Shown one piece after another: positions 51,460-62,161 of a stretch of 64,000 nucleotides of DNA. This DNA is from Synergistaceae bacterium (GTDB taxonomy: Bacteria > Synergistota > Synergistia > Synergistales > Aminobacteriaceae): the NCBI GenBank assembly GCA_031277095.1, contig JAISLU010000001.1:1-64000 (forward strand), written 5' to 3'. Position numbers and translations under genes: made by a program. Each line of letters starts with the position of its first letter. The first letter of the stretch is position 1. Under the pieces are notes generated by a model that was not told the DNA's origin, did not search any database, and saw nothing but the letters and a program-made list of their open reading frames with translations.

Positions 51460-52707
51460 TTAATTTACGTAATTGAATACGAGTTTCACAATCCAACAAC
51501 GGGATATATCGCCGCCAGAAGACTTGCCCTCTCCGGCTACGATATAGCCGCCGTCCAACGTCTGCTGAATGGAATGAGCGGCATCATTCAGAACGCTTCC
51601 AAGTGCCCGTTGCCAAATAAGTTCTCCCTCGGAACTCAGTTTAATAATCCAATAGTCGCTGAGACCGTGATTGTCGGAAACATCTCCATTGTCGGATGCG
51701 GAATACCCTGCAACGATATATCCCCCATCCGCTGTCTGTTGAATTGAACGGGCTTCATCATCGTCAGAGCCTCCAAAAGATCGCTGCCAGACAAGTTCTC
51801 CTGCGGGATTCAGCTTGACAATCCAATAATCAGTCCCGCCGTGATTGCCGGAAACGTCTCCATCGTCAGAATTGGATCCTCCGGCGACAATATAGCCTCC
51901 GTCCGTTGTCTGCTGAATGGATTGGGCCCATTCTTTTTTAGAACCCCCAAAGGACTTCTGCCACTCTATTTCGCCGTTCGAATTCAGTTTGACAATCCGG
52001 CAATCATAATCACCGCGGCTGCCCAGCCGGGACCCGGCAGCCGTAATATAACCGCCGTCCGAGGTCTGCCGCACGAAACTGACCTCATTACCCTCGGATA
52101 CTCCCGTCGATTTCTGCCATACGATATCTCCATTGGAGTCCAACTTCACAACTTGATAAAAAAGCCTTCGCTGTTCCTCCAATACGTTGAGCATTTCCGA
52201 AAAAATATAGCTGCCGTCCGCCGTTTGTTGAATGCACAAGGCTCGATTCATCCCGGATTCCCCATATGTCTTTTGCCAGATCAGTTCTCCTTCTTTACTC
52301 AATTTTAGAATCCAACATTGGCTGCTGCTACTTTCTAAATCTATACGCATAGGCAATACAGAAAAACCAGAGGCAATATACCCCCCATCCGCTGTCTCTG
52401 CAACAAAGTCTATATAGCCGCGTTCGCCATTACCAAAAGTTTTCCGCCAAACGCTGTTTCCCTTAGAATCCAGCTTCATGAGCCAGCCGACAACTTTCCC
52501 CCGGTTACCCAAAACAGCGCCATTATGGGAAGAAGCGCTTCCGCCGGCAATATAGCCGCCGTCCGATGTCTGCTGGATAGAAACAGCACTGCCTCTCCTT
52601 GAGCCGCCGTAAGATTTCTCCCACTCGATGGAAGGCGAAAGCGCAGCAGCCTCCAGAGTATTTTTAGAAAGTGCCGCAACAAGCATCATCGACACCCGTA
52701 TGCACAT
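51460..52707 (-). CDS. Secreted seven-repeat beta-propeller-like protein
   Basis: Seven ~52-58-aa repeats of (I/L)xWQKSFGGS...SIQQTxDGGYIVAGxS...DYWIVKLNxxGE; start probably MCIRVSMML at 52707 rather than 52839. Confidence 0.75.
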   Translation of the reverse strand: MCIRVSMMLVAALSKNTLEAAALSPSIEWEKSYGGSRRGSAVSIQQTSDGGYIAGGSASSHNGAVLGNRGKVVGWLMKLDSKGNSVWRKTFGNGERGYIDFVAETADGGYIASGFSVLPMRIDLESSSSQCWILKLSKEGELIWQKTYGESGMNRALCIQQTADGSYIFSEMLNVLEEQRRLFYQVVKLDSNGDIVWQKSTGVSEGNEVSFVRQTSDGGYITAAGSRLGSRGDYDCRIVKLNSNGEIEWQKSFGGSKKEWAQSIQQTTDGGYIVAGGSNSDDGDVSGNHGGTDYWIVKLNPAGELVWQRSFGGSDDDEARSIQQTADGGYIVAGYSASDNGDVSDNHGLSDYWIIKLSSEGELIWQRALGSVLNDAAHSIQQTLDGGYIVAGEGKSSGGDISRCWIVKLVFNYVN

Positions 52708-52792
52708 TTTGGATAGGCTGTGCCTTCGAGCAATACACACGTTTCGTACCTCGTTTTTGTGATATTTTTGCGTTTGACGTGGGCGCAATTTT

Positions 52793-54289
52793 TTATTTCT
52801 TTTCCGGCTCTCCGGATTTTTCAGGCGATGCTGCGCCAATGGCTATTTTTCGCTCCAAAAGCGTCTGGGGCAGGCAGGACAGTTCCTCCACGGGCAGTTC
52901 GCTCAAGACCTCCCACGCCTTGGCCTCGGATTGAGCGAGGGTCCTTCTTTCAAGCTGCCGCTCTCTTCCCTTTTGGCCGACAAAGAATTTTTCAAACGCG
53001 TCTCCGAACTTCAAGTAGAGTTTTCCCACCTCGGACAGCCCCGCGTCTCCGACGGCAGCCCGCAGGAGCCTGGTTTCCCTGGCCTTCACGTAAGCGGAGC
53101 GGAGTTGATCGGCAAGGACACGGTGAGAGTCGAAAGTCTTTCCGCGCCCTATTCCTCTGTCCATAGACCGAGACAGGCTTGCCTGCACGTTGAAAGGCGG
53201 GAAAATACCCTTGGCGTGCAGCTCCCGGTCCAAAACGATCTGCCCGTCGAGAAGCTGCCCCGACAGGTCGGCCACCGGATGCGTGACGTCGTCGTCGGGC
53301 GCGGTGATCACCGAAAGCTGGGTCACGCTCCCCGGGCATCCAGCGATACAACCGGAGCGTTCGTAAAGCTCGGCAAGGTCGGAGTACATTGCGACGGGGT
53401 ATCCTCCCCGCCCGGGTATCTCCTTTCGCAGGGCGCTTATTTCCCTAAGGGCATCGCAGTAGTGGAGCATGTCCGCCATGACGACCAGGACGTCGTACCC
53501 TTTGACGAAGGCGAAATACTCGGCGACGGTCAAAGCGACCCGCGGCGCCAGGAGACGCTCCGCAACCGGATCGTTTGCTTTGTTCAGCACCAACACGCTT
53601 CTGTCCGTCACGCCGTCGCGCTCGAAGGTCTCTATGAAAAGGTCCGCCTCGCGGCCAGTGACGCCCATAGCGGCAAAAATCACAAGAAAATCTCCGTCTT
53701 TGCCGGGGATCAGCGCGCGGGCCGCCATTCGCGCCGCGATTTCGCCGGCGGGCAGCCCCGGCCCCCCGAGCAAAGAGAGCCTTTGGCCGCGAACCCAGGT
53801 GTTCATCAAATCCAGCGCGGATATCCCCGTCTCAATGGCGCCGTTAGGTGGTATTCTAAGGCCGGGAGGCAACCCCTTCGCGGGAAGGAACTCTTCGAGG
53901 CCGTAAAGGCTCCTTCCGTCGGCGGGCAGCCCGCGGCCGTTCAGAATTCGGCCCCGCAGGGCTTCTCCTACTCCCACCTTCGCCACGTCGCGCTCCATCC
54001 ACACGGTCGCCCGCCCCGTTTCCAGGCCTGGGGCGTCGTCAAACATCTGGACGACACAAAGGTCGTCTTTGACCTGCAGCACCTGCCCCGTCTTCGCAAA
54101 CTCTTCAAGCGAGGATGCGTTCACCGGGTCGCCCCATAGAGTCACCAGCTCGCCGCAGCCGACGCCCGTCATGTTCTCCACAAAAAGAAGGGAGCCGGTT
54201 ATGCCTTTGATTCCGCGGGAACCTTGTCGATAAAGTTTTCGACTGCATTTTTGCTTGAATTCTCGATTGGGTTCTTGATTGAGCGTCAT
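52793..54289 (-). CDS. atpB: V-type ATP synthase subunit B
   Basis: ISALDLMNTWVRGQRLSLLGGPGLPAGEIA, PGRGGYPVAMYSDLAELYERSG, DDVTHPVADLSG; ATGA overlap with subunit A. Confidence 0.93.
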   Translation of the reverse strand: MTLNQEPNREFKQKCSRKLYRQGSRGIKGITGSLLFVENMTGVGCGELVTLWGDPVNASSLEEFAKTGQVLQVKDDLCVVQMFDDAPGLETGRATVWMERDVAKVGVGEALRGRILNGRGLPADGRSLYGLEEFLPAKGLPPGLRIPPNGAIETGISALDLMNTWVRGQRLSLLGGPGLPAGEIAARMAARALIPGKDGDFLVIFAAMGVTGREADLFIETFERDGVTDRSVLVLNKANDPVAERLLAPRVALTVAEYFAFVKGYDVLVVMADMLHYCDALREISALRKEIPGRGGYPVAMYSDLAELYERSGCIAGCPGSVTQLSVITAPDDDVTHPVADLSGQLLDGQIVLDRELHAKGIFPPFNVQASLSRSMDRGIGRGKTFDSHRVLADQLRSAYVKARETRLLRAAVGDAGLSEVGKLYLKFGDAFEKFFVGQKGRERQLERRTLAQSEAKAWEVLSELPVEELSCLPQTLLERKIAIGAASPEKSGEPEKK

Positions 54290-56163
54290 AGCGCTACCTC
54301 CTGGTCGGCCGTTTGTCTCGCGGCGAGTTCGGCGGTGAAAAGGGCCAGCCACTCCCGTCCTTTATCCGTAAAGTCCCCCGGCAGGTCCCACAAAGCGGCA
54401 AGTTCCGCCCTCATGGATACGCGGGCGGCGGCCGGGAGACCGTCTTTCAAAAAACTCCGCACCCTGTCGTCCAGCGCCTTGAGAAGCCGAAGCATCGCCG
54501 CCGACCTGGCGGGACAGGAATCTTGAAGGTCGAATACGTTTTGCCGCAGATACACGGTCTCGATGGTTTCGGCGTGAAAAAGAATCCATCGATCCTCTTC
54601 GGAAAGCGCAATTTCACCGGCTGAGCGATTTGAAGCCAAGGTTGGAGCCAAGATTGGGTCAAAGATTGAATCAAAGGTTGAGGCAAAGATTGGAGCGAAG
54701 GCTGAAGTTGGGGCGAAACGCGCCGAATCGAAAAGCTCCCTCGCACGCGACAAGATGTCCCTCAAGTATTCTTTCAGATCGGGCCAGTCTTGCCCCGCAT
54801 TTTGGGCTAGAGTGTCCGAAACCGCCTCTTCGTAGAGGGAGTAACTTCGAGCCAGGTCCATCGCGGGAAAGCGGCGGGCCTGGGCAAGGACCTTGTCGAG
54901 CCGCCAGCAAGCTCCGGCTCGGCTCAGGCCGGTCTGGGTCACCGGCTCGGAAAAGTCTCCCCCTTCGGGTGAAAACCCGCTGATCAAAGTCACAGAGCCG
55001 CGGTGCCCCCCCAGCGTTTCCGCCTGTCCCCCGCGCTCGCAGTAGCTCGATAAACGGCTTCCCAGATAAGCCGGATATCCTCCTTCGCCGGGAGATTCTT
55101 CGAGACGGTTCCCGATTTCCCTCAGGGCCTCCGCCCACCGGGACAGGGAATCGATCACGACGACCGCGTCGCAGCCCATATCCCGATAGTACTCGGCCAG
55201 GGTCATTCCCAAGTAGATGCCGGGGTCTCGCGCCGCCACGGTCATGCTGGACGTGCTTGTCACGAAGATCGTCCGCTCCCTCAAAGGGATTCCCCGTCTC
55301 TCGGCCTGGGAGAACTCCTCCAGCATCTCGGCTGTTTCGCTTCCCCTTCCTCCGCATCCAACGTAAACGATCACGTCGGCGTCGCACCCTGCGGCCAAAG
55401 ACCGCTGGACGAGGGTCTTTCCCGTGCCGACTCCTCCGGCTACGGCAGCCACGCCGCCCACGGCCAGAGGGAAGAGGGTATCGAATCCCCGCCGCCCCGT
55501 CCACAGAGGACGATCCAGCGGCAAACGCGCCCTGACGGGCCTGGGGACGCGCACTTCCCACCGCTGGGCCAGGGACAGTTCTGTTCCGTCCGCCAAACGG
55601 CATATACACTCTCGCCGCGTGTAATCGTCCCCCTCCGGCGCTATCCAGGCGATGGCCTGAGGCGACGAAACCGGTGGGACCAAGATACGATGAATGAAGA
55701 GTTTCCCCTCCTCCACCGTTCCCAAAAGGTCCCCCGGCGCGACCGTGTTCCCCTCCGCCGCCGCCGGCGTGAAATGCCACAGCGGCAAATCCGGCGCGCC
55801 GCCGCCTTGCAGCGACCCAAGGGATTCAATAGATCCCAGGGATCGCCCCAAGCCGTCCAGAACCTGCCCCAAAAAACCGGGGCCCAAATCTACGCTCAAG
55901 AGCTTTCCGGTAAAGTAAACTTCTCCTCCTGCAGCCAGCCCCGTCGTGTCCCCGTAGGTTTGGATATCCACCGTTTTCCCCCGGATGCGGACAACTTCGC
56001 CTGGGAGTTTCGAAGCCATTGTCCTCGAGTCTATGGCCCTCGAGTCTAAGGCTCCTCCGGCGATCCATACCGCCTCGAACATCCGGGGGCACGAATCCGT
56101 CTCGGCGGTGATCACCGGTCCGGAGACACCCGTTATCGCGCCCTTCGCCCAATTGTTTTCCAT
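54286..56163 (-). CDS. atpA: V-type ATP synthase subunit A (divergent active site)
   Basis: AGGVGTGKTLVQRSLA P-loop; YVGCGGRGSETAEMLEEF; DSLSRWAEALREIGNRLEESPGEGGYPAYL; SPEGGDFSEPVTQ. Confidence 0.93.
   Translation of the reverse strand: MENNWAKGAITGVSGPVITAETDSCPRMFEAVWIAGGALDSRAIDSRTMASKLPGEVVRIRGKTVDIQTYGDTTGLAAGGEVYFTGKLLSVDLGPGFLGQVLDGLGRSLGSIESLGSLQGGGAPDLPLWHFTPAAAEGNTVAPGDLLGTVEEGKLFIHRILVPPVSSPQAIAWIAPEGDDYTRRECICRLADGTELSLAQRWEVRVPRPVRARLPLDRPLWTGRRGFDTLFPLAVGGVAAVAGGVGTGKTLVQRSLAAGCDADVIVYVGCGGRGSETAEMLEEFSQAERRGIPLRERTIFVTSTSSMTVAARDPGIYLGMTLAEYYRDMGCDAVVVIDSLSRWAEALREIGNRLEESPGEGGYPAYLGSRLSSYCERGGQAETLGGHRGSVTLISGFSPEGGDFSEPVTQTGLSRAGACWRLDKVLAQARRFPAMDLARSYSLYEEAVSDTLAQNAGQDWPDLKEYLRDILSRARELFDSARFAPTSAFAPIFASTFDSIFDPILAPTLASNRSAGEIALSEEDRWILFHAETIETVYLRQNVFDLQDSCPARSAAMLRLLKALDDRVRSFLKDGLPAAARVSMRAELAALWDLPGDFTDKGREWLALFTAELAARQTADQEVAL
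54632..54703. repeat. 12-bp in-frame tandem repeat, 6 units, in atpA
   Basis: gaagccaaggtt/ggagccaagatt/gggtcaaagatt/gaatcaaaggtt/gaggcaaagatt/ggagcgaaggct. Confidence 0.85.
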
Positions 56164-56188
56164 GTGTACGTCTCCTTGTGCGCCGCTG

Positions 56189-56764
56189 TCACTGCTCGGG
56201 TATGCCATGCTTGGCTATGAAGAAGGGGCGCAGACGCCGCCATCTCGTTCTAAAGGTGTTGTCGATGAGCCGCCCGCTTTCCTTCTCTTCGATCAGAAGG
56301 CCGCCCCAAACGTCTTTCAGGCCTTCCCGGACCTCCAGTGCGCTGCCGGGTTTCAAAAAAACGGAGTCTCCCTTTTCCACCCACAGAATCGACGGAAGCG
56401 ACAGGTATTCTTCGGCCTCAGCCGCCAAAGCCCTCATCGCGTCCCCATATGGGGGCGAGCGGCGAAAGGCCTCCACACGGGCTCGCACTTCTTCATCCAG
56501 GCGCTGGAAGAAATTGTCCTGCAGCTCGATCTTGAAGGCTTTTTTCTGAAGTTCCACACGACGGCGATTGGCTTTCAGCCCCTCATCCAAACGCTTTTCC
56601 CGGGAGCGGCGCAGATTGTGGACGATACCCTCCACCTCCAGGCGGCGCGCCGTAATCATGTCGGCGAGGTCCTCGTCCACGGAGCGTTTCAGGACAAGAC
56701 AGCGTTCTTTGTGCTGGTCCAACAAGGCTCTCTTGAAACCAGCCAGATCATCCAACTCCGGCAA
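56189..56764 (-). CDS. atpE: V-type ATP synthase subunit E-like peripheral stalk protein
   Basis: Charged helical N-terminus; VFLKPGSALEVREGLKDVWGGLLIEEKESGRLIDNTFRTRW C-terminal E-type block. Confidence 0.75.
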   Translation of the reverse strand: MPELDDLAGFKRALLDQHKERCLVLKRSVDEDLADMITARRLEVEGIVHNLRRSREKRLDEGLKANRRRVELQKKAFKIELQDNFFQRLDEEVRARVEAFRRSPPYGDAMRALAAEAEEYLSLPSILWVEKGDSVFLKPGSALEVREGLKDVWGGLLIEEKESGRLIDNTFRTRWRRLRPFFIAKHGIPEQ

Positions 56765-56765
56765 A

Positions 56766-56984
56766 TCAAACCATCCCGATAATCATCATGGCGACGACGA
56801 AGCCTAAAACCACCATCGTCTCCGGGATGGCCTCCAGAACGATGATCGTCCCGGCGGTCTCCGGCTTTTCCGCAATGGTGCCTGCTCCCGCGCTGCCGAT
56901 GCGGGCCTGAGCGTAGGCCGTCGCAAGGGCGGGGATGGCCACGGCCAGGGCCGCGGCTAGAGCTACAATCGCTTTCTCAGTCAT
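56766..56984 (-). CDS. atpK: V-type ATP synthase subunit K (8-kDa, two-helix c-ring subunit)
   Basis: MTEKAIVALAAALAVAIPALATAYAQARIGSAGAGTIAEKPETAGTIIVLEAIPETMVVLGFVVAMMIIGMV. Confidence 0.9.
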   Translation of the reverse strand: MTEKAIVALAAALAVAIPALATAYAQARIGSAGAGTIAEKPETAGTIIVLEAIPETMVVLGFVVAMMIIGMV

Positions 56985-58881
56985 TGTAAAGCCTCCTTCT
57001 TTTGGCAAAGGGTTTGTATTCCAGCGTCCCGCTTTCGTAAAATTTCCCCATGAACTCCACGTAATGAAGCCGTGCCGCGTGCAGGGAAGATCCTCCGATA
57101 GCCAGGACGAAGTTCAAAAGGTGAATGGCGAACGCCATGAAAAAACCCAGCACGGGAATTTCGATCACGTCCACGAACATGCTGGCGACCATAGCGAGAA
57201 TTGCGGAGGACAGTCCGATGGCGGCGATGCGGATATAGCTGATGATATTGCCGATAGTCCCCAGAGATTCCACGATCCCCCCGATTCCCCCTCCCCACAG
57301 CAGAAAAATCACGCCGAAGACCAGCAGCATGACAGGTATGGAGAAAAGCGCGGCGGGCAGCTTCGAGCGCAGCGCCACCAACGCCGAAACCATGGCGAGG
57401 ATAACCAGCAAACTTCCCAGGCGCTCCATCCAGAGGTGGCGGTGCCGGTTCCGAATACCCTCGATCATGCCGATGAGGAGTCCAAGAAAAACGTGACCTC
57501 CGCCCAAGGCTACGCTGAACACCATGACGGGCCCCACCGTGTGGGCTCTGTCCACCCACAGCGGCTCCATGTGCAGCAATCGGTGCCCCACATCCCCGAA
57601 AAGCTCGCCGAACACCCCTCCCCACGCAATGCTCCAGAACGCCAGGAAGAGGAGAATGACGCCCACATCGTGCATAACTTCCGAACGCTTTTGCTTCAGG
57701 TACCAGCCCAGCCACAAAACCAGTACACCGTAACCGATATCCCCCACCATGCAGCCCGCGAAAAAGGGGAAAAAAACGCCTATCAGGAAGGAGGGGTCAT
57801 AGGCGCTGTAATGGGGCACTCGCAGAAGTTTCAAAAACAACTCGAAAGGCTTGAAAAGAGAGTGGTTCTGAAGGGCGGTGGGGACCGCTCCGTCCTTGGC
57901 CGGGTCGGGCGGACGGGAGCGCAAGACGACGGCGTCGCCGAAGTCCTCCTTCAAGGTCGCCTGGGTGCGGGCGAGGTCGCTTTCCGGTATCCAACCCTTC
58001 AAACTGAAAAAATCGTCGTTTTCTTCGGCGGACAGCTCCATGAGAAGCTGCTCCAGCCGTTCGTCCAGCAGGATGTAAACAGCGGCCAGGTTCGCCCCCC
58101 ACTGGTCGGACAATTGTCGGAGTTCCTGCTTGTTTTCTCTCATCCGCGTGGGCAGGCTTCTCAGTATTCTCCGTATCCTCGATGCCGCTGTCACCAGTGG
58201 CTCTCCCTCGTAATTCTCCGGCAAGCGCCATAGAGTTCCCCTCAGCTCCTCCGCGGAGGTTCTGAGGCTCGACTGTATTTCGGGGGAAGCGCTGGTGACG
58301 AGAAAAGCCGACCCGTCCGCAAGTTCGAAGGAGTGGTAGCGAAACCAGGGCTTCTCATGTCCGCTGGGCAAAGAATCCAAGTCTCCGTTTATTTTGGAGA
58401 CAAGGGTATGCTGAGCCTGACGTGAAAGCTGCCAAATGAGGACTTCGCCCCGGGAAAAACGTTCTTGCTCCAAAAACGCCCGGGCATGGGTCAAAATGAG
58501 GTTGGTTTTCCGCAGTTTCGTAAAAAGAGCCTGTACCTTCTCCTGGCCTTCGTCGATTCGGGAAAGGCGCGATTGGATGCGCTCGAGGCTTCTGTCGATC
58601 TCCGCCATCATAAACTCCAAGTCGCCGAAAAGATTATAACGAACGTTTTCGACGAAAGCGTCGGTCAATTTCCTCCATTCATCCCACTTGAGCGCCTCGA
58701 TCAGGCCCAGCACCCTCCCCCTCTGATCTCTCAGCTTTTTCAGCAGAAGGCTGTCGTCCGTCATGTCGTCCGGCAGCACGTTGTCCAGGTGGAAAACCCC
58801 CAGCTCGTAGAGCCGCCCGGCAATCGCCGATTTTTTATCCTTCACTCCCCACAGAACGACCCTGGCCATTCGTTTTATCAC
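56977..58881 (-). CDS. atpI: V-type ATP synthase subunit I
   Basis: KMARVVLWGVKD N-terminus; SLKGWIPESD; C-terminal TM domain PFFAGCMVGDIGYG, FGELFGD, LNFVLAIGGSSLHAARLHYVEFMGKFYESG. Confidence 0.93.
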   Translation of the reverse strand: MIKRMARVVLWGVKDKKSAIAGRLYELGVFHLDNVLPDDMTDDSLLLKKLRDQRGRVLGLIEALKWDEWRKLTDAFVENVRYNLFGDLEFMMAEIDRSLERIQSRLSRIDEGQEKVQALFTKLRKTNLILTHARAFLEQERFSRGEVLIWQLSRQAQHTLVSKINGDLDSLPSGHEKPWFRYHSFELADGSAFLVTSASPEIQSSLRTSAEELRGTLWRLPENYEGEPLVTAASRIRRILRSLPTRMRENKQELRQLSDQWGANLAAVYILLDERLEQLLMELSAEENDDFFSLKGWIPESDLARTQATLKEDFGDAVVLRSRPPDPAKDGAVPTALQNHSLFKPFELFLKLLRVPHYSAYDPSFLIGVFFPFFAGCMVGDIGYGVLVLWLGWYLKQKRSEVMHDVGVILLFLAFWSIAWGGVFGELFGDVGHRLLHMEPLWVDRAHTVGPVMVFSVALGGGHVFLGLLIGMIEGIRNRHRHLWMERLGSLLVILAMVSALVALRSKLPAALFSIPVMLLVFGVIFLLWGGGIGGIVESLGTIGNIISYIRIAAIGLSSAILAMVASMFVDVIEIPVLGFFMAFAIHLLNFVLAIGGSSLHAARLHYVEFMGKFYESGTLEYKPFAKRRRLYND

Positions 58882-59276
58882 GCGCTATCGCCCCCCTCCC
58901 CCAGAGTGTCCGCGCTCTCGAAAAAAGGCAGCAGCCCGTCGAACGCGTCTTTCGCCAGAACATCGAGAAATTTTTCGTCCCACAACCGCTCTCGGAGGCG
59001 TGTTTTCCAATCGGCAAACGCCGCTTCCGCCTCTTCCCGGTCTTGGGCGAGGCGCTCTTCCACGTCCTTCTCTTCCATGCGGGCGATCTCGATCGTTCGG
59101 TCGGACATGGCGTTCAAACGCCATAACGTTTCTTCTTTGAACCGCTCGAACTCGATTTTTTTGCCTTCCATGTCCTCGGCCAGTCGCCTGCGCACGTTCT
59201 CCAGCTTGTCTCCCGTCTCCAGAAGGGTATCCGGCGTATTGGACAGAGTATCCGAGGCTGCCGATTTATCCGACAT
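58878..59276 (-). CDS. Coiled-coil protein, probable V-ATPase peripheral stalk (G/H-like)
   Basis: Highly charged helical 132 aa, overlaps atpI start by 4 bp. Confidence 0.5.
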   Translation of the reverse strand: MSDKSAASDTLSNTPDTLLETGDKLENVRRRLAEDMEGKKIEFERFKEETLWRLNAMSDRTIEIARMEEKDVEERLAQDREEAEAAFADWKTRLRERLWDEKFLDVLAKDAFDGLLPFFESADTLGEGGDSA

Positions 59277-59730
59277 TGCGGCTGTATCCTTCGAGCATGA
59301 AGTTCCAGAGCATCTTGCGATCGATAATGCCCACCAATATGCCGTCCTCTACGACAGGAAGGCGGCGGAGATGTTTGCGTATCATCAAGTCGGCTATGGA
59401 CATCAGGCTCACATAGGGCTCGACGGCCACGGGAGATTTGGTCATATAGTCCTTGACAGGAAGTTTCCCCAGCTTTTCCAGCTGCCTCACGAATTCTTCC
59501 TCTTCCCCACTCAAAAACGAGCTTTGAGTGAGGACCTCGAGGTACGACGGCGTCGCGGCGCGTAAAATATCGGTTTCGGACAAAAATCCGACAAGACGCC
59601 AATTCATGTCGACAACAGGCAGACCGGCAACGTTATGAGAATAAAAAATGTCGATAGCTTCGCTGATGGTGCTGTGCTCCATAACGACCGTCAGGTCGCG
59701 GTCCATGAGTTCGCCGACTGTAGTGATCAT
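59266..59730 (-). CDS. Two-CBS-domain protein
   Basis: MITTVGELMDRDLTVVMEHSTISEAIDIFYSHNVAGLPVVDMNWRLVGFLSETDILRA ... VKDYMTKSPVAVEPYVSLMSIADLMIRKHLRRLPVVEDGILVGII. Confidence 0.92.
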   Translation of the reverse strand: MITTVGELMDRDLTVVMEHSTISEAIDIFYSHNVAGLPVVDMNWRLVGFLSETDILRAATPSYLEVLTQSSFLSGEEEEFVRQLEKLGKLPVKDYMTKSPVAVEPYVSLMSIADLMIRKHLRRLPVVEDGILVGIIDRKMLWNFMLEGYSRNVG

Positions 59731-61520
59731 CCGCGATCTTCCCCCTTCCAAGTGTAGAGACCTATGCGCGTCGCCAGAACCCGGGCGACGAAAAAGAACA
59801 ATCTCACATCTTTTTTCCAGCGATATGGCTCCTGGCACAGCCTGAAAAACCATTCCAGCCCCAATTTTTGCAGTATTCGCGGTGAACGTTTCAGGTGGCC
59901 GGACAGGACGTCGAATGCCCCTCCTACCCCGACGGCCAAGACGCTGCCCAAACTCTTCCCGTGACGGTCTACCCACTTCTCCTGCCGGGGGATGCCCATC
60001 GCCACGAAAAGGATTTTCGCCCCGGAGTGGGCGACGACGTCCGCCACGGAGGGGTCGTCCATGGCGAAATAACCGTCCCGGGCCCCCGCCACCACCAGCC
60101 CGGGATATCGCGCCGCCAGCGCTTTGGAGCAAGTCAGAGCCGTCTTGCCCCGGGAGCCCAGAAAATAAACCGGCCATCCCTCCGCCGCCGCCATCCGGCA
60201 AAGCTGTTCGGCAAAATCGATCCCCGTCACGCGCTCTTGTATGGGCATTCCCAAAAATCGCAGCCCCCACAAAAGGCCGACACCGTCCGACAAAACCATG
60301 GCGGAATGTCTTAAAATGCGGTGGTATTCGGGATCGCAAACCGCCTCGTCCATCCCCAAGGCATTGACGGTGGACACCAGCTTCGTTTCCTTTTTCGTTT
60401 CCCCCGAAGACAAGATCAGGCCTCTGGCTCTTGCCAGAGCGTAATTGAGAGACATGTTGTCGATGTGAACACCCCACAAACAGGGTTTCCCGTGGAACAT
60501 GGGAGAGCGGTTCCTGTACTTGAACGCCAGAGGAACGACCACCACGAGAACGAAGGCCCCTCCCCACCAGATCCAGGCCGTGTAATCTCCCGAGTACTGA
60601 GACAGAGCCGTCGCGATGCCCAGAAAAGCGCACAGGCCGGCTATGAAGCGCACCGCGTCGGGGTGTTCCAGTCCGTTTCGGATCAATTTCCGGTAAAGCC
60701 GCTCCGTTCCGTGGGGCGTGTCGGAAAAAAACAGATTAGCCAAGTGCAAAGAGGCCTCCGCCATGGGAATGGCAAAAAGTCCTAAAGACAAATAAAGCAT
60801 GGAGCTGAACACGATGCCCTTACTGACCCCCAATATCGCCGTCCCCGCGGCCAGAGTGCCCCACATCGCCGACATGGTCCTGCCGGCCTGACGGTAAAAA
60901 TCGCTGAAACGGCTCCAAAAGGCCCCCAAAAGAACCAGCCCGGCAAAGGACATGAAAAAGGCGTCCTCCATCCCCCGGACGGCCAGAACCACGGAAATCA
61001 GCATGAGGGAAAACGTCACGGCCAGCATGTACCCCACCAGGCCGGGAATAGCGTCCAACTGCTGGAGAATGACGGGAAAGAGCGCGAACCACAGAGTAGT
61101 GACGATAACCGACGTCAACGGTGTCAAATAAATGTACTCTCCGTCGACGAAGCTGATGAAGCTGATGGAAGGTCCGAACAGAGCGCAGCAAAAACCGATG
61201 AAAAGATATCCCCATCTTCCCGGGCGTCCCGGCCAGAAGTTTTCCGTCAGGCCGACGATCCCCGCGAGAAAAGCGGCCCCTGCGACAAACCGCGACTGCG
61301 GCGAACCGAACCAAATCGCCAGCAACAGCCATCCCCCCACCAGAAGGAGATCGCGCAAGTAAGCATACTGGCGCGGGTCGAAATATCTTTTCACCGCATA
61401 CTGAACGAGGACACACAGGGCGGCTGCGCCGACGCAACCCGCTATCATCTGCAAATCGTAGGAAACGATCAAAAAGAGTAACACCTCCGAGAAAACACTC
61501 GATTGATCGAATGGATTCAA
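59727..61520 (-). CDS. Membrane (MraY/WecA-like) domain fused to WecG/TagA/CpsF glycosyltransferase
   Basis: C-terminal LVSTVNALGMDEAVCDPEYHRILRHSAMVLSDGVGLLWGLR ... VAMGIPRQEKWVDRH...VGVGGAFDVLSGHLKRSPRILQKLGLEWFFRL; N-terminal ~10 TM segments. Confidence 0.85.
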   Translation of the reverse strand: MNPFDQSSVFSEVLLFLIVSYDLQMIAGCVGAAALCVLVQYAVKRYFDPRQYAYLRDLLLVGGWLLLAIWFGSPQSRFVAGAAFLAGIVGLTENFWPGRPGRWGYLFIGFCCALFGPSISFISFVDGEYIYLTPLTSVIVTTLWFALFPVILQQLDAIPGLVGYMLAVTFSLMLISVVLAVRGMEDAFFMSFAGLVLLGAFWSRFSDFYRQAGRTMSAMWGTLAAGTAILGVSKGIVFSSMLYLSLGLFAIPMAEASLHLANLFFSDTPHGTERLYRKLIRNGLEHPDAVRFIAGLCAFLGIATALSQYSGDYTAWIWWGGAFVLVVVVPLAFKYRNRSPMFHGKPCLWGVHIDNMSLNYALARARGLILSSGETKKETKLVSTVNALGMDEAVCDPEYHRILRHSAMVLSDGVGLLWGLRFLGMPIQERVTGIDFAEQLCRMAAAEGWPVYFLGSRGKTALTCSKALAARYPGLVVAGARDGYFAMDDPSVADVVAHSGAKILFVAMGIPRQEKWVDRHGKSLGSVLAVGVGGAFDVLSGHLKRSPRILQKLGLEWFFRLCQEPYRWKKDVRLFFFVARVLATRIGLYTWKGEDRG

Positions 61521-61633: not shown

Positions 61634-62161
61634 CTAAACGTTTATGCTCAACGCTTTTCCGACAGGACGTTTTTTTTCTCCCACTCGGATGTTTTTCAAA
61701 AGGTTGGCCATCTCGATGGCGCTGACCGCGCAGTCTGCGCCTTTGTTTCCCGCCTTGCTGCCGGCGCGTAGAAGAGCCTGTTCCAGTGTGTCGCAGGTCA
61801 GGACGCCGAAGGCCACCGGAACGCGCTGTTCCAGGCCCACGCAGGCCAAACCCTTGGACATCTCCGCCGAAACATAATCGAAGTGGGGGGTATCCCCACG
61901 GATGACGGCTCCCAAGGCGATGATCGCGTCGTATTTTCCCGCAAGAGCCAGCTCCTTGGCGATCATAGGAAGTTCCCATGCGCCCGGAACCCAGTAAATT
62001 TCTATGTTCTGATGAGAAACGTCGTGACGCAAAAGGGCGTCCTTCGCCCCCTCCAACAGCTTATTGGAGATCAGCTCGTTGAAGCGCGAGGTGACGATCG
62101 CCACCGAAAGCCCCGTTCCTATCAGTTTTCCTTCCACTACCCGCATGACGGTACCCTCCAC
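61634..62161 (-). CDS. ribH: 6,7-dimethyl-8-ribityllumazine synthase
   Basis: [73 protein letters not shown]. Confidence 0.96.

Follow-up and report, generated by a model that had tools for sequence, protein, structure and literature searches.

Known rotary ATPases and their reduced forms

Rotary ATPases are usually seen as machines requiring every part. In the V-type architecture the D and F subunits form the shaft and the C subunit links the membrane ring to it; an arginine of the I subunit and a glutamate of the K subunit are likewise well known for their roles in the membrane sector. The operon described here has homologous A, B, E, I and K subunits in the Enterococcus hirae Ntp and the Thermus thermophilus V/A-type enzymes. 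In the Thermus enzyme A/E257, A/R258, A/K234 and B/R360 sit at the gamma-phosphate, A/E257 (the glutamate of the GER motif) being a catalytic side chain, and the ring of A/F230 moves within the site (PMC8904598); in E. hirae the gamma-phosphate is held by A/K238, A/R262 and B/R350 (PMC5095293). Like these enzymes, the present locus keeps the P-loop Lys/Thr, the GER arginine and the arginine finger of B. Unlike them, it is devoid of C, D and F, the GER glutamate is replaced by glycine and the P-loop phenylalanine by valine.

Three other systems are comparable in part. Nanoarchaeum equitans has an incomplete A-type ATP synthase (NeqA-NeqB, 5bn3-5bn5), likewise a rotary ATPase with lost subunits, and its A-B core is judged inactive yet is expressed (PMC4935971, PMC3149612), the missing glutamate being the one sign of inactivity in our case; in contrast to that host-dependent archaeon, the cell studied here has two complete V-ATPases besides. 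The F1-like ATPases of mycoplasmas (gliding motor; MIB-MIP) similarly represent rotary heads put to an unconventional use (PMC11864180, PMC12994834), but they are of F-type ancestry and ATP-driven, and their locus is not homologous. Finally, isolated Vo resembles the present complex in having a ring and an a-subunit without coupled rotation, and that of Thermus lets protons through once a threshold voltage is exceeded (PMC7367684); it differs in that C (d) is present and in that it arises by disassembly rather than by genetic loss. What sets our locus apart from the N. equitans and mycoplasma cases is its coexistence with two complete V-ATPases and a graded series of relatives that shows a likely order of events. 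In our literature search, descriptions of incomplete rotary ATPases came up for N. equitans but not for Synergistota, and nothing was found on GER-less bacterial A subunits.

The operon and its A subunit

The window (the whole stretch of 64,000 nucleotides analyzed) comes from a Synergistaceae draft genome (G000; 2.72 Mb, 94% complete, 113 contigs). The genes occur in the order ribH, wecG-like, CBS, H, I, K, E, A, B:

61634-62161, minus strand: ribH, marker flank (synteny; gene name from sequence)
59727-61520, minus strand: WecG/TagA/CpsF-type glycosyltransferase, marker flank (PF03808, 190.5 bits; synteny)
59266-59730, minus strand: CBS-domain protein, marker flank outside the complex (synteny; domain recognised from sequence)
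58878-59276, minus strand: probable H/G-type peripheral stalk subunit (assigned solely from its position and orthology, without a match in Pfam or NCBIfam)
56977-58881, minus strand: I subunit (a-subunit; PF01496, 92 bits)
56766-56984, minus strand: K proteolipid (c-ring) subunit, single hairpin (PF00137, 54 bits)
56189-56764, minus strand: E (peripheral stalk) subunit (weak NF003049 match, orthology, gap sizes)
54286-56163, minus strand: homologue of the V-type ATPase A subunit without the GER glutamate, 625 aa (NF003220 match, AlphaFold2 model)
55414-55437, minus strand: P-loop GGVGTGKT of A, with valine for phenylalanine (Thermus A/F230 equivalent) and Lys/Thr retained (alignment)
55348-55350, minus strand: GGA (Gly) codon of A in place of the catalytic glutamate of GCGERGNE (codons, alignment)
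52793-54289, minus strand: V-type ATPase B subunit (NF003235, 489.5 bits, cut-off 349)

The A subunit matches NF003220 (V-type subunit A) over the whole protein with 512.7 bits (cut-off 470), its score of 488.6 against the equivalog TIGR01043 lying under the cut-off of 972. Its AlphaFold2 model (pLDDT 83.5) has the Thermus and E. hirae A subunits as top PDB matches and superposes on Thermus A (7vai_A) with a TM of 0.84-0.91. Translation likely starts at the ATG at 56163, which follows a Shine-Dalgarno-like AAGGAG, the open frame (54286-56208) extending upstream to 56208. B overlaps the stop codon of A (ATGA) and has the arginine-finger residue retained (SLSR). A repetitive insert of A (54613-54711; SAFAPIFASTFDSIFDPILAPTLAS), modelled with very low confidence, is not present in solved relatives.

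The minus-strand codons GGA (55359-57) TGC GGA GGA (55350-48) AGG GGA AGC GAA translate as YVGCGGRGSE, so that glycine stands in place of the GER glutamate exactly as the initial annotation had read it. That annotation took the GER Glu and Arg for active-site residues, in agreement with the position of A/E257 and A/R258 at the gamma-phosphate in Thermus (PMC8904598), and proposed a catalytically altered enzyme, which, at the level of sequence, the replacement of the catalytic glutamate by glycine supports. It had also noted the P-loop GGVGTGKT in place of GPFGxGKT. Of these differences, the GG in place of GP is standard in this branch, since both the complete orthologues and another A subunit of the same genome (contig C107) read GGFGTGKT, leaving the Phe-to-Val change as the only unusual one. 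The alignment confirms the P-loop Lys/Thr and the GER Arg in the window protein. The draft status of the genome could make one suspect that the GER codon was misread or misassembled. However, in the alignment with relatives the two other genus members, sequenced as independent genomes, read GCGGRGGE, and in a second genus two genomes have NCGGRGNE; the chance of an error is therefore negligible, and we consider it ruled out by these four genomes.

A PF00006 profile search of the genome returned three A/B pairs and single matches on contigs C8 and C20, which by score and size we take to be FliI and Rho. As the three pairs are V-type and this search found no F1 alpha/beta pair, the cell appears dependent on V-type enzymes. 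Two of them are complete V-ATPases with an intact GER, a positive answer to the initial annotation's question whether another complete enzyme is encoded elsewhere: the operons on C99 (H-I-K-E-C-F-A-B-D) and C107 (D-H-C-I-K-F-E-A-B), whose A subunits both read GCGERGNE. The three A/B pairs are accompanied by two D, two C and two F (PF01990) genes, all of which lie in the C99 and C107 operons. The suggestion of a specialised rotary ATPase thus finds no support in that form: D, F and C are absent from the window operon, and a third copy was not found in the genome.

Rotor gene loss within Synergistales

By gene order, the window locus is classified as a third V-type ATPase that is syntenic across Synergistales. 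In the other families and in most other genera of the order it reads ribH-wecG-CBS-(H)-I-K-E-C-F-A-B-D. The C subunit of this third type has ~350 aa in complete operons (detected by PF01992 in G018, 4e-18) and D is recognised by PF01813; F, a divergent protein of 86-99 aa (e.g. L062:9327-9596), is missed by PF01990 in G018.

Nine genomes, the window's own and those of eight relatives, have an operon without C, F and D: G000-G002 (the window's genus, g1), G009 and G025, G020, G004, and G029 and G106. The G001 counterpart (L013, JAISWV010000078.1) belongs to a Synergistaceae MAG that we presume, from its sample name, to originate from termite gut. E directly adjoins A in the window as in all nine rotorless loci, whereas in 16 complete operons the two genes are ~1.05-1.4 kb apart, with C and F in between; no D-like gene follows B in any of the nine, and no remnants of C, F or D were found in these loci. 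That some new gene took the place of D after B was considered and rejected, the genes downstream of B being different among species.

Relocated C, D or F genes were not found in the rotorless genomes, mostly multi-contig drafts, either with Pfam models or with the third-type C and F of G018 as queries, which recover both genes in complete genomes. Two weak C matches fall inside the 3' end of E, overlapped by the extended C query, and are for this reason read as E-gene similarity. The D counts tell the same: two in each of the other rotorless genomes tested (in G106 as three pieces, one full gene and two contig-end fragments that jointly make one) vs three in most complete genomes (G018, G003, G043, G044 and G041).

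The number of losses is possibly one to three, judging from the trees. Monophyly of the rotorless group survives the AU test with the flanking genes (p-AU 0.49) and with the combined set (0.098), but I+K+E reject it (0.013); the complete G018 belongs to the same genus as the rotorless G029 and G106.

Active-site changes accompanying rotor loss

Outside the rotorless group, all 18 A orthologues (the C/F gap and D were verified in 16 of them) have GCGERGNE and FGTGKT, including the P-loop phenylalanine, intact. Among the rotorless nine, the phenylalanine is lost in eight and the GER glutamate in five (three of g1, two of g8). The glutamate loss, confined to rotorless genomes, is thus nested within rotor loss and is no lone oddity of the window. 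G020, adjacent to g1 in the flanking-gene tree, retains the glutamate, so the change seen in g1 and g8 probably arose twice by sequence comparison. The residues that remain in 9/9 rotorless genomes are the P-loop Lys/Thr (G[TA]GKT), the GER Arg and the arginine finger of B, as well as, in the membrane sector, the K glutamate (within PETMVVLGF in the window) and the I arginine (the conserved membrane Arg residues being present in the window; roles of both from PMC7367684 and established background). A shift of catalysis to B was dismissed, because B has no P-loop Lys/Thr in the alignment.

Another change concerns the A-subunit loop SPxGGDFSEPVTQ, invariant in complete operons and altered in most rotorless ones, which by analogy with F1 would be the catch loop facing the rotor. 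This bears on the idea that A, B, E, H, I and K still form a pump using D, F and C of the C99 or C107 enzymes. Two full sets of these subunits are indeed available in trans. Yet the third-type D is only ~21-27% identical to the other D proteins, the predicted catch loop is no longer conserved, and five of nine species have lost the catalytic glutamate; together with the rates given below (A and B evolve fast, I and E do not) this makes a borrowed rotor very unlikely.

The retained residues would also fit a non-rotary ATPase, in which the A3B3 ring serves as an ATP-driven conformational machine or a membrane-attached ATP sensor, broadly resembling the F1-like ATPases of mycoplasmas. In addition to the 9/9 conservation of P-loop Lys/Thr, GER Arg and arginine finger, the glutamate is kept in 4/9, and the gliding and MIB-MIP systems of mycoplasmas provide precedents (PMC11864180, PMC12994834). 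We find this option improbable, as two genera, that of the window among them, have lost the glutamate and the nucleotide domain is the fastest-changing part.

Evolutionary rates and selection

Rates were expressed as the branch length within the rotorless clade divided by that of the remaining tree, on a fixed topology. The flanking genes wecG (0.15, column-bootstrap 0.13-0.17) and CBS (0.19) provide the baseline, with which E (0.18) and I (about 0.16-0.20; 0.16 for the soluble and 0.19 for the membrane half) agree. The ratio for K is about 0.56-0.58 (range 0.37-0.80), in a protein of only 72 residues where the change is mostly at the ends and 97.6% of cells at invariant sites are retained. 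Higher values were obtained for B (0.79) and for the A subunit, for which the N-terminal part (0.43) and C-terminal part (0.49) flank a nucleotide-binding domain with a ratio of about 2.0-2.1 (column-bootstrap 1.5-2.7). The approximately tenfold acceleration of this domain relative to the flanking genes, set against none in I and E and a moderate one in K, means that relaxation is centred on the catalytic domain, with I and E spared.

For the A nucleotide domain, rotorless pairs have Nei-Gojobori dN/dS values of 0.17-0.39 (dS 0.55-0.83); the complete pair G003/G061, with dS close to saturation, has 0.024. A gives 0.24-0.39 and B 0.17-0.32 in rotorless species (dS for A/B comparisons about 0.55-0.95). 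The shift from about 0.02 to 0.17-0.39 indicates that rotorless A is relaxed yet not neutral, and from these sequence comparisons we regard the rotorless proteins as relaxed but still under selection.

These data also address slow decay, i.e. that a redundant third V-ATPase has lost its rotor genes and its A and B are eroding towards pseudogenes. Such a course would be in line with the strong acceleration of A and B, the different motifs broken by species (catch loop, GER, P-loop Phe) and the two complete V-ATPases in the same genome, and a visibly decaying operon is known from an Oscillospiraceae MAG (L027:6022-9961, WRAB01000005.1; A of 377 aa with GCGARG, B truncated). On the other hand, all the reading frames remain open in nine species from five genera, both A and B have a dN/dS below neutral, I and E evolve at the flanking-gene rate, and the essential K and I residues are retained. 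We hence consider decay unlikely. The L027 operon has I reduced to its soluble part, the membrane part missing, and no K was seen in it.

Proposed function of the rotorless complex

The explanation that we favor as reasonably probable from sequence is a former rotary pump that no longer rotates and is retained for its I/K membrane sector, on which A and B would form a cap that binds nucleotide with little or no catalysis. The locus derives from a complete V-type ATPase, of which the rotor subunits D and F and the ring adaptor C have been lost. With neither a D/F shaft nor a C link, rotary coupling is absent as encoded; the remaining H, I, K, E, A and B could not pump by a rotary mechanism, and still selection maintains the set. 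The product would be a membrane I/K ring uncoupled from ATP hydrolysis and bearing a stalk-tethered A/B head that binds nucleotide, with hydrolysis presumably weak, or nearly nil in the window's genus and one other. Non-rotation and binding without efficient hydrolysis are what we infer: the retained Lys, Thr, Arg and arginine finger favor nucleotide binding, the lost glutamate disfavors efficient hydrolysis, and the retained ring Glu and I Arg suggest that the ion path is intact.

In isolated Thermus Vo, d (C) and the soluble part of a jointly block proton flow up to ~120 mV (PMC7367684). As C is part of this brake and is lost here, the remaining ring may be a passive ion conduit gated by nucleotide or voltage; both the conduit and its gating are a rather doubtful conjecture. 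Should the membrane part prove ion-conducting, it would represent a natural uncoupled Vo. Several considerations count against the favored explanation: the other two V-ATPases might supply C, D or F in trans, K is moderately accelerated, a ring leaking ions would be a burden for the cell, the analysis brought up no gating partner, and most of the genomes are drafts in many contigs. With similar caution, we advance as a tentative possibility for the clade that a rotary V-ATPase was turned, possibly repeatedly, into a rotorless c-ring/a-subunit complex whose A/B cap binds nucleotide without hydrolysing it, acting as a gated ion conduit or an ATP-sensing scaffold. Overall, the locus suggests a rotary motor converted into something else, and the series from complete through rotorless with GER to rotorless without GER, all beside complete V-ATPases, makes selection on an A3B3 head and a/c-ring without rotation directly testable.

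Surroundings of the operon

The WecG-like glycosyltransferase (with a membrane part) and the CBS protein (59266-61520 in the window) precede this V-ATPase order-wide for no obvious reason. The rotorless G004 operon carries ~1 kb of additional sequence between K and I (L092:8515-9472). Directly downstream of B in the window is a Delta-60/SBBP-type repeat protein (51460-52839), which is not conserved there among the relatives.
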